Position numbers and translations under genes: made by a program | The notes under the pieces: generated by a model | Databases searched by the model: none | The model's input: only the letters and a program-made list of their open reading frames with translations | Told to the model about the DNA's origin: nothing | Shown here: positions 1 through 59,830 of the stretch, piece by piece | How the letters are laid out: each line of letters opens with the position of its first letter | Numbering within the stretch: position 1 is the first letter of the stretch | NCBI GenBank assembly: GCA_022824315.1 | Contig: JAJEAC010000188.1 | Coordinates: forward strand, 1-64,000 | Length of the DNA stretch: 64,000 bases | Source: Silicimonas sp. | Lineage (GTDB): Bacteria; Pseudomonadota; Alphaproteobacteria; Rhodobacterales; Rhodobacteraceae | Direction of reading: 5' to 3'

Positions 1-280
1 AAGCGCCCATGGCGAACTCGCCATAGACCGGGACCTCCATGGCCGGTCCGGTTCCTTCGACCTGCAGCCGAAGGCATTCCCGGCGCGCGTCGTCCACGGG
101 AACCAGGTCGACCCGGCCAAGCGAGGCCCTCCGTCCGTCGACGGTGCATGTCCAGGTCTTCGTGCCTGACGGGTAGACACGAACGCTCAGTGAGGGAACC
201 GCCTTGTCGTGCACCGAGAATTCGCTCTTGGCGGTCTTGAGGCGCATCGCGCGTGCGTCTGTCAACTTGACTCGGGTCAT
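1..280 (-). CDS. Second tyrosine recombinase, N-terminal part (cut by left edge)
   Basis: Reading leftwards from an ATG at 280 the frame stays open to the window edge, giving 93 residues. It begins MTRVKLTDARAMRLKTAK and continues with VRVYPSGTKTW and an Arg-rich strand. This matches, segment by segment, the arm-type DNA-binding start of the integrase just upstream (MSKMRLTDAKVRALRPAK, VRILPSGRKRY), so it is a diverged paralogue of that enzyme. Its ATG overlaps the upstream stop codon (ATGA, 277-280), which suggests translational coupling. The catalytic domain lies outside the window, so activity cannot be judged. The family is recognised from the paired N-terminal pattern only. Confidence 0.72.
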   Translation of the reverse strand, partial: MTRVKLTDARAMRLKTAKSEFSVHDKAVPSLSVRVYPSGTKTWTCTVDGRRASLGRVDLVPVDDARRECLRLQVEGTGPAMEVPVYGEFAMGA

Positions 281-1395
281 GTCTCCCTCCCTCCGAGAAC
301 GGCACCCATCGCGACCGCGGCCTCCTCCACGGCAGCCTCGGCGTGGTGAGCGTATTTGAGCGTGGTTCCCGGATCGTTGTGCCCGAGCAGCCGCCCCACC
401 GTGAGGACGGTCTCTCCGTTCATGATCGCGAAACTTGCATACGCGTGTCGAAGATCGTGAAGGCGGACGTCCTTCAGGCTGGAGTTCGACCGGATTCCAG
501 CCCAGGTCTTGCGAACCTTGGAGGACGAGATCGGACCCTCGGTTCTCCCGGACGGGAAGACCCACGGCGACGTGCGCGGAAGATCGTTCAGGACAGCGCG
601 TGCTGCAGACGAAAGCCATACCGTGCGGGGACCCGTCTTGCTGTCCCGCAGGTAAAGATGCCCGTCGCGGAAGTCCTTCCAGCGAAGGGTCCTGATCTCG
701 CTGGAGCGGCAGCCGGTCAGCGCAAGGAGCCGGATGATCGAGACCGTCGGACACGGCCCCGCCTCGCGCAGCGCCGTACCGAGCTGGCCGAACTCGGATT
801 CGGACAGGAACCGTTCGCGGTTCTTCCTGCTGTATCTCCGGATCCCCTTGCACGGATTGCTGCCCTCCGGCCGCAGCCCCTCGGCTTCGACCTCCTTCAT
901 GATGACCGACAGCACGGGCATCGACCGGTCCGCCGACACCGGCGTCGCATGCAGGGAAGCGAACCAGTCCTTCACGTCCCGCGACGTGATCCCGGAAATC
1001 TGGCGGCCCCGGAACCAGGGCAGGATCTTCTTGTCGAGATAGTGCCTGTTCACCGCAAGCGTGCCCGGTTTCCAGTTCCTGCCATACCGTCGAAACACCT
1101 CTTCCGCAACGACCTCGAACAGCGTCTCGTCACCCGAGGCCGGACGTCCGGTTCGGATCGCGGCAAGCATTTCTCTCGCCCGTTCCCGCGCCTCGCCGAC
1201 GGCCATGCCGTCAGGGTCGCCCACGATCCGCCATTTGCGGCGACCCTCGTGCTGGGATTGCAGAAAATATCGTTTCCGCCCGCTGGGCAGGATCCTGACG
1301 CCGAAGCCCGCAAGGGCGGTGTCCCGGACGTTCCGGGTGGTCTTCGCGGGCCGCAGGGCGCGGACCTTCGCGTCGGTGAGTCGCATCTTCGACAT
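277..1395 (-). CDS. Tyrosine-type site-specific integrase (phage/ICE family)
   Basis: A 372-residue recombinase of the length usual for P4-like integrases. Residues 1-80 form the arm-binding domain (start MSKMRLTDAKVRALRPAK). The middle is the core-binding helical domain. The catalytic domain carries the first Arg in LLALTGCRSSEIRTLRW, the His-x-x-Arg box in LHDLRHAYASF, the second His in LLGHNDPGTT and the Tyr nucleophile in LKYAHHAE. All catalytic residues are present, so the protein looks functional. It should cut and join att sites to insert or excise an element. It is followed at once by a second recombinase gene (ATGA overlap) and preceded, about 100 bases upstream, by an att-like palindrome inside a truncated photolyase gene. 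Confidence 0.93.
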   Translation of the reverse strand: MSKMRLTDAKVRALRPAKTTRNVRDTALAGFGVRILPSGRKRYFLQSQHEGRRKWRIVGDPDGMAVGEARERAREMLAAIRTGRPASGDETLFEVVAEEVFRRYGRNWKPGTLAVNRHYLDKKILPWFRGRQISGITSRDVKDWFASLHATPVSADRSMPVLSVIMKEVEAEGLRPEGSNPCKGIRRYSRKNRERFLSESEFGQLGTALREAGPCPTVSIIRLLALTGCRSSEIRTLRWKDFRDGHLYLRDSKTGPRTVWLSSAARAVLNDLPRTSPWVFPSGRTEGPISSSKVRKTWAGIRSNSSLKDVRLHDLRHAYASFAIMNGETVLTVGRLLGHNDPGTTLKYAHHAEAAVEEAAVAMGAVLGGRET

Positions 1396-1480: not shown

Positions 1481-1514
1481 CGCTATTTCAATAGCGTAGC
1501 ACCGAAGGTGCGAT
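1481..1514. other. Att-like site: two adjacent palindromes upstream of the integrase
   Basis: Two short inverted repeats lie side by side: CGCTATT-TC-AATAGCG (1481-1496) and GCACC-GAA-GGTGC (1499-1511). The minus-strand 17-mer ATCGCACCTTCGGTGCT (1514-1498) recurs exactly at 59552-59568, again upstream of an integrase start. The truncated photolyase frame runs into this site and stops inside it, as expected if it is an attachment junction. That it is the crossover core is an inference. Confidence 0.55.
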
Positions 1515-2378
1515 CCCAGGTGTGTGCCAGGCGAGGTGATGCGCAAACTCGCGCCAAGCGAGTTCCTTCAGGAAGGACACCGCCCCCGGCCTGCCGTCCC
1601 GGGCTGGCCCAGCTGCCACGTGCCAGCAAGTGGCAGGACTGATCTCGCCCCACGCCAGATGCTCGGAAAGACGGGATGTTGCTGGCTCCGCCAGATAGTC
1701 CCGTCGTTCGCCGTAATTGTCCATTCTATCCGCGGCGAAGGATTCCAGCCGGTCCCGGGCAGCGTCCTCGCCAATCGTCACGTGCCGGGCAACCACGGAC
1801 GCGCCTCGCTGCATCGGCTGCGCCAGGCCCCAGTCCGCGACATCTGCACTCGCCGGCCAGGTTGCAGGCGCAGGCAGTCGCCAGGGACGGGGCAACGGGG
1901 ACGCCACGTTGATGCCTTCGACGGCCCTCCAAAACGCCGAAAAGACCTGGAAGTGCGTTCCCGCCCTGGTCTGGACCGACCATGGTTCGAACAGGACGCT
2001 TCCTGGAACGCTTGCTCCGTCAATGCCCGCTGTCTGCAGTGCGGCTTTCACGGCCTTGTCGCGCGCAATCTGTGGCGCATCGTAGGCCCTGCTCCAACGG
2101 ACCGCCCGGGCTCCGGTCTTGGCAGCCACGTCCAGCAGCACGTCCGTCGCCGACCCGCGACGACAGATCAACCGCGAGCCAGCGGCATTCAGCGACTTCG
2201 CAAATTCCTCGACACCCAACCCGAACCGCCAGAGAGGTGCCGCGCCGTAGGATTCGAACACGTCATCCAGTATGAAGACCGGAACCACCGGACCTCCTGC
2301 CCCAAGGGCCGATGCAAGCACAGGATTGTCCGAAAGACGCAGATCCTTCCGAACCCACCAGATCACCGGATCACGCAT
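1488..2378 (-). pseudogene. phr: Deoxyribodipyrimidine photolyase/cryptochrome, C-terminally truncated
   Basis: The 296-residue product starts MRDPVIWWVRKDLRLSDNP, the typical beginning of the photolyase antenna domain, and reaches the FAD-binding half (NYGERRDYLAEP, SEHLAWGEISPATCWH, LKELAWREFAHHLAWH). Photolyases normally run to about 470 residues; here the last roughly 170, including most of the FAD pocket and DNA-contact surface, are missing. The frame ends PGIAPSVLRY then stop, exactly where the att-like palindrome begins. The start at 2378 is supported by GGAGG four bases upstream; the open frame further upstream has no photolyase similarity. Repair activity is very unlikely. Truncation by integration of the element to the left is the simplest explanation. 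Confidence 0.85.
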
Positions 2379-59062: not shown

Positions 59063-59551
59063 TCAGCAGTTCATTCTTCGTGGTGCAATACACGACTCTG
59101 GCCAACGCGGAACCTGATGCGTTGCCCAAGTGCGATGGTCGAGAGCCGGATCTGTCCTTTCAACATGATCCGGCTTCCAAGCTCCGAATCGTGCCTGCGG
59201 TCCCCTGCAAGCACCTGGATGAGACCTGGCGCGCACGACACCGCCCTGACTTTCGGGCGCTCTCATGTGCCTCCGTCGCATGGCCGCACAGGACATCTGA
59301 TTCAGGATCGGCAAACATCAACCCTGTCCCGCAATCGGGCACCCCACATCCAATCAGCGAGGTGACCACGATGCGCCGGGCGACCACAGCATTGATCGCG
59401 GAACTGCCAAAGTTGATCTTCCGTTCCGTGGCAGGCCACCAGCAGAACGATGTTCTTCGCAAGAAGTGCTGACAGGCCTTTGTTTCCCAAGGGTGCCCTC
59501 CAAACACGTTCTTTGGCTGTTCCACCGCATGATCCACGCTATCCACACGAC
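59063..59551. other. Gene-poor region left of the second att-like site
   Basis: About 490 bases with no recognisable gene on either strand. Confidence 0.3.
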
Positions 59552-59568
59552 ATCGCACCTTCGGTGCT
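59552..59568 (+). other. Second att-like site
   Basis: The 17-mer ATCGCACCTTCGGTGCT is identical to the minus-strand sequence at 1514-1498. It lies 113 bases before the start of a decayed integrase, against about 102 bases at the left site, and the bases between (an ATTGA...CTTTCCTC-like stretch) are also alike. It is probably the attachment core of a sister element. Confidence 0.55.
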
Positions 59569-59681
59569 GGTCCAATTCTAGTCCATTGATATCAAGTCGC
59601 TTTCCTCTGTCAAATTCGCGACTTCGTGCAAAACCATGGCGGATTCTGTTCCCCGCTGCAACTGCAGGGGAGAACAGATCG

Positions 59682-59830
59682 ATGACATGCATCAATTTTA
59701 CCGACGCCCGAATCACGGCGCTCAAGCCCTGCAGGGCCACCCACGACATCCGCGACACCAAGCTGAAGAGCGTCCCCGTCGGAATGGTCCCGACGTGGGA
59801 AGCGCATGCAGGCACGGCCAGCAAGATGTG
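59682..59830 (+). pseudogene. Tyrosine integrase N-terminal remnant
   Basis: From ATG 59682 the frame reads MTCINFTDARITALKPCRAT then HDIRDTKLKSVPVG, matching the start of the intact integrase at the left end (MSKMRLTDAKVRALRPAKTT, RNVRDTALAGFGVR). After about 40 residues the similarity fades and continues only weakly in other frames. The catalytic domain is not found. It is a dead copy of the same integrase type. Confidence 0.7.

Follow-up and report, generated by a model that had tools for sequence, protein, structure and literature searches.

Results

Features at the two edges of the window

The window analysed here is a 64,000-nucleotide stretch of a Silicimonas contig (C3), part of a genome (G000) of 208 contigs and 4.81 Mb. 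The features that concern us lie near its two edges.

1-280, minus strand: int2, 5' part; start codon at 278-280, truncated by the start of the contig, with a match to an integrase N terminus at C3:74-280
277-1395, minus strand: int1 (P0001), a tyrosine recombinase of 372 aa with arm-binding, SAM-like and catalytic domains
1498-1512, minus strand: left end of the intact element, CGCACCTTCGGTGCT, with the dyad GCACC-TTC-GGTGC; this end is conserved, at a similar distance from int1, in 29 distinct insertions
1513-1518, minus strand: attL spacer TGGGAT; the attR counterpart on contig C71 is ATGGAT
1519-1523, minus strand: target core ACACC in phr; ACACC is found here in 28 of 29 sites
1519-2378, minus strand: phr (DNA photolyase), 5' part; the 3' part, with the FAD-binding domain, is at C71:~433-987
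59545-59553, plus strand: probable target remnant ACACG and spacer ACAT, from the sequence and by analogy with the 4-bp-spacer members L123 and L124
59554-59568, plus strand: left end of the relic, CGCACCTTCGGTGCT, an exact sequence match
59554-59790, plus strand: relic of a second-subfamily element, comprising left end, leader and the first 30-odd codons of int1 (start 59683)

A previous, sequence-only reading of this DNA had reported an identical 17-base sequence at both loci in opposite orientation. This was borne out: ATCGCACCTTCGGTGCT occurs at 1498-1514 on the minus strand and at 59552-59568 on the plus strand. These are the only two exact copies in the window and the 208-contig, 4.8-Mb genome, the nearest other match (on C11) carrying two mismatches. 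Each copy adjoins an integrase start, at a distance of 102 bases, as had been stated, and of about 114 bases, where 113 had been given. The stretches between site and gene are indeed alike: aligned locally with the 17-mer masked, the two regions scored 76, whereas 300 shuffles of the unmasked region gave no more than 39. The 17-mer had also been called att-like, and it does hold an element end, but only 15 of its 17 bases, CGCACCTTCGGTGCT, belong to the element, the leading AT being target DNA from the insertion-site spacer. CGCACCTTCGGTGCT is the int-proximal (left) end of a family of integrative islands.

The intact copy divides a photolyase gene

In the intact copy the int1 stop and the int2 start overlap as ATGA; the int2 translation begins MTRVKLTDARAMRLK, and its DNA is 86% identical to int2 of locus L028. 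Behind 1498-1514, the minus-strand photolyase ORF stops short after ...ELAWREFAHHLAWHTP. The photolyase FAD domain has a single match in the genome, at C71:421-972, which lacks the first 15 profile positions, and six genomes of the genus have the whole gene, reading ...HTPWILDRNW or HNPWILDRNW. The junction on C3 is ...GGCACACACC-TGGGAT-CGCACCTTCGGTGCT and that on C71 is ...GGTTCACACC-ATGGAT-TTTGGACCGCAACTGG. Because the halves of phr on C3 and C71 each adjoin an element end, we conclude that one element splits the gene, with its left end at 1512 and its right end near C71:432. The middle of this element is absent from the assembled C3 and C71. The sequence-only reading had suggested a search for matching direct repeats beyond each window edge; the one that belongs to the intact copy is found on C71, within the 3' part of phr.

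The second copy is a remnant of a separate insertion

The second copy had been described as a dead integrase. Dead it is, but not as a full-length decayed gene: about 235 bp of the element are left, with an uncertain right limit at 59780-59798. Its left end and leader share 74-77% identity with members of a different subfamily, better than with the intact neighbour. Compared with the same locus in sister genomes, these about 235 bp stand in place of about 215 bp of host DNA; there, the intergenic host sequence runs uninterrupted between genes that by eye are amidase-like and porin-like, and no relic is present. The left flank of the dead site is syntenic in seven sister genomes, several of which have both flanks on one contig. 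The simplest course would be an insertion of which all else was later deleted, together with a small amount of host sequence. Whether the relic flank might be a second photolyase remnant was also considered and ruled out, its alignment scoring below shuffles. Elsewhere on the same contig, outside the window, C3:124603-124719 holds a scrap of integrase N terminus with an internal TAG.

The window thus contains two separate insertions, and the 58-kb block between them is ordinary chromosome, as shown by sister genomes that have no relic and are syntenic at the dead site. The sequence-only reading, in which a chromosomal block is flanked by two outward-facing insertions of one family, one intact and one decayed, was right in each of these particulars, but the block is no unit, the subfamilies differ and the insertions are independent.

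Members of the family and their target

Two further, paralogous int pairs were found in G000, one on C196 and the other on C15, next to what by eye appears to be a tRNA-Gln gene. More members came from other genomes of the genus and from a small number of MAGs besides, under the titles Boseongicola, Silicimonas, Rhodobacter, Rhodobacteraceae, Alphaproteobacteria and, once, Gammaproteobacteria. The family core consists of two adjacent tyrosine-recombinase genes at the left, overlapping by 4 bases or a few bases apart, with no gene between; behind int2, blastn found no sequence common to the subfamilies. In the 29 distinct insertions compared, the left ends match or nearly match CGCACCTnCGGTGCT and lie about 115-130 bp 5' of int1. 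A chromosomal ACACC precedes this end by 4-8 bp at 28 of the 29 sites (L063 being the exception), against a background of 0.23% of flank positions, and the length of this 4-8-bp spacer differs among subfamilies. The elements sit at chromosomal ACACC mostly inside genes, and the target gene is not restored. Both element ends carry an imperfect direct repeat, ACACC-N5/6, for example GAACACCGTGTTG / CTACACCGTGTTC.

The element of C3 also occurs in L061, a contig of another assembly, with 239 of 239 bases identical. The flank of L061 is 100% identical to G000 over 1,763 bp, yet the site in G000 is empty (ACACC-ATGGAG), which suggests an insertion polymorphism and recent movement.

Four related loci (L033, L108, L142 and L143) have other or no recognisable ends. 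The first of these, L033:10001-11116, is a family member of 60% identity in a MAG labelled Gammaproteobacteria; its left end is changed and it apparently lies inside a PQQ-dehydrogenase-like gene. G000 also has a tandem integrase pair at C61:11786-14105, about 41% identical to int1; it lacks the CGCACC end and may belong to a second tandem family related to this one. The contig starts C24:1-600 and C148:1-600 of G000 share an integrase-like N terminus and are 90% identical over 589 bp.

Right ends recovered from split host genes

Element ends were paired through split host genes because no complete element lies on one contig. Besides phr, four split genes gave matching left and right ends: those for an alanine dehydrogenase, an RND transporter, an ABC substrate-binding protein and a malK-like protein. 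The alanine dehydrogenase gene, GAACACC-GTGTTC-TCGACC at attB in other genomes, is split in G002 into an attL, GAACACC-GTGTTGA-CGCACC, and an attR, TTCTACACC-GTGTTC-TCGACC (also given as CTTCTACACC-GTGTTC-TCGACC). One site in the RND-transporter gene is occupied in five genomes by elements of two lineages, and its attR could be read in G002, G004 and G005. The substrate-binding gene of G004 reads ...YQVDTTE at the left end and TDFTPVLTPV... at the right, and the malK-like gene is split in G002 (both genes named by eye). The RND-transporter gene (G000:C91:24243-24862) is a hot spot: it is empty in G000, and the L061 insertion lies about 620 bp from the five-genome site.

The spacers of attL and attR usually differ at position 6, and those of phr and malK at positions 1-2 too. 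Compared with the empty site of the alanine dehydrogenase gene, the attR spacer is unchanged and that of attL departs from it in the sixth base; the attL of L061 likewise departs from its empty site at this base. These differences leave the overlap length unfixed, and the sixth base may be element sequence or come from the donor spacer.

For the subfamily of the window element, left and right ends are equal in number in G000, G001, G002, G004, G005 and G007, and G006 has three right ends versus two left ends. In this subfamily the right ends share about 300 bp of conserved sequence, in which a palindrome, CCATGTGCAATGCrCATG, hardly varies and a second dyad shows compensating changes; they terminate in ACACC. 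Three overlapping small genes, pointing inward, occupy the right part in this subfamily and in one element of another. All three are present in L247, L249 and L250 and, incompletely, in L252; L248 and L251 hold only the start of the first, and C71 begins within that gene. Related small proteins occur in L253, the element of another subfamily. All six proteins scanned from L249 and L250 were closest to NikA-like families (E below 1e-3), and of two scanned from L253 one was NikA-like at 0.005 and one ParD at 0.004; the NikA-like Pfam matches are weak (E 7e-7 to 5e-3), most at or below the gathering score. A search downstream of each element for its own spacer located no right ends, and the end of the L144/L145 alignment, considered as a right end, was ruled out since it lies inside a coding stretch.

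Cargo

The DNA after int2 varies between elements. Judged by its matches, the cargo is mostly anti-phage defence, and the islands appear to carry defence genes between related marine bacteria. The genes comprise type I-E CRISPR-Cas (cas3, cas8e, cas7e, cas6e and cas1e matched), type I restriction-modification, a cluster of AIPR, DUF4420, Z1/MzaC-like protein, ATPase and cytosine methylase, Hhe/PDC-S37-like and GajB-like proteins, E1-E2-JAB, an HmaC-like ATPase, and GmrSD and SIR2-like proteins; behind one right end there are also a tryptophan halogenase and an ABC transporter. As element limits are known for only some of these contigs, part of this list may be of host origin. In L028 the type I-E CRISPR-Cas locus, at L028:12732-20872, is immediately behind int1-int2.

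Discussion

We consider it very probable that the 17-mer marks the left end of integrative islands with two tandem recombinases, variable cargo and an ACACC target, and that the copy at 59552 is the deletion remnant of an older insertion. An identical 17-mer, inverted, at both edges of the block could also be taken as attL and attR of one 58-kb composite element or island filling the window. That is almost certainly wrong: the integrases face outward, the two copies belong to different subfamilies, the left flank of the dead site is syntenic in sister genomes, several with both flanks on one contig, and the intact copy has its right end on C71, in phr, so that the two phr halves refute it. It is very improbable, too, that GCACC-TnC-GGTGC is simply a terminator or regulatory hairpin ahead of the integrase genes and uninformative on ends. 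The dyad does adjoin the int leader, and a second hairpin and a T-run follow it in C3, but homology between insertions begins at the motif, host flanks differ just outside it, and comparison with empty sites puts the junction there, which contradicts a purely regulatory role.

A different question is whether the family is a group of its own. As in integrative genomic islands with a tyrosine recombinase, an integrase lies at one end, direct repeats at both, and relatives have an empty site. GInts are genomic islands with three integrases (ginABC) in one operon, followed by a small HLH gene, ginD (PMC5385486), and SEs are strand-biased circularizing integrative elements with the left-end order intA-tfp-intB-srap (PMC10214605). 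The present elements could be a divergent branch of either, with accessory genes lost or replaced. Like GInts and SEs, they have adjacent tyrosine recombinases at the left, variable cargo right behind, conserved right-end stretches, imperfect direct repeats of about 10-11 bp (here ACACC-N5/6) and a variable overlap of about 6 bp (PMC5385486, PMC10214605); with SEs in particular they share a left end that has two catalytic tyrosine recombinases, as well as 6-bp end spacers that act as footprints. However, the elements sequenced beyond int2 have int1 and int2 only, two recombinase-like genes rather than three, without ginC; no ginD was seen after the recombinases in a comparison by blastn, which found nothing there common to the subfamilies; and the three small NikA-like genes are at the far, opposite end. 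Neither tfp between int1 and int2 nor srap was seen, and SEs place the 6 bp of the target in attL, whereas in alanine dehydrogenase it is attR that equals the empty site, attL being one base off. Moreover, GInts have been reported absent from Alphaproteobacteria, and SEs have been reported as present only in Gammaproteobacteria (PMC10214605). We therefore regard a divergent GInt or SE branch as rather unlikely. The architecture, as read from sequence, resembles that of GInts and SEs but is without their defining gene sets, in a class outside their reported host ranges.

RITs (recombinases in trio, with overlapping ritA-ritB-ritC; PMC3414803) likewise have adjacent or overlapping tyrosine-recombinase genes and occur in alpha-proteobacteria, but the present family, compared here in gene content, has two such genes instead of three, and cargo besides. 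The three weakly NikA-like genes beside the conserved right end invite comparison with IMEs (integrase plus relaxase or oriT). Integrases of the CTnDOT and Tn916 type rely on a short core together with a 6-7-bp coupling sequence that can vary, and hence use many sites. In contrast to these, the present family has two recombinases, the core ACACC and no conjugation genes seen in the parts scanned. A literature search of open-licence papers found no two-recombinase family with an ACACC target and no islands in a photolyase gene.

As to mechanism, Int1 and Int2 may act together on a short core, in which ACACC is joined by an overlap of some 5-6 bp and, on the element side, by an arm that contains the 5-3-5 dyad. 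The island would be excised as a circle, whose ACACC-spacer would pair with similar ACACC-spacer targets, and on the simplest reading integration would proceed by conservative strand exchange with mismatch tolerated. The NikA-like proteins might recognise the conserved DNA of the right end, which would then mimic an oriT and allow mobilisation in trans; alternatively, they might serve as directionality or arm-binding factors. More tentatively, and in our view improbably as a whole, the family could be a distinct class of mobile defence island, in which an asymmetric XerC/XerD-like complex of two different tyrosine recombinases needs hardly more than ACACC and a few matching bases, so that the island can split many genes, and the NikA-like trio with the palindromic right end forms a relaxosome platform that borrows a conjugation system.

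In summary, the element in phr accounts for the broken state of the genome's only photolyase of the searched family. The family would add a vehicle for anti-phage defence genes (type I-E CRISPR-Cas, type I restriction-modification, Z1/AIPR/methylase and E1-E2-JAB) in an alphaproteobacterial genus, and in a class without reported GInts or SEs. Its target is so short that insertion nears the behaviour of a transposon, yet the footprints stay readable: for several of the split host genes the empty site can be recovered, and sequence alone thus suffices to reconstruct how these islands moved.
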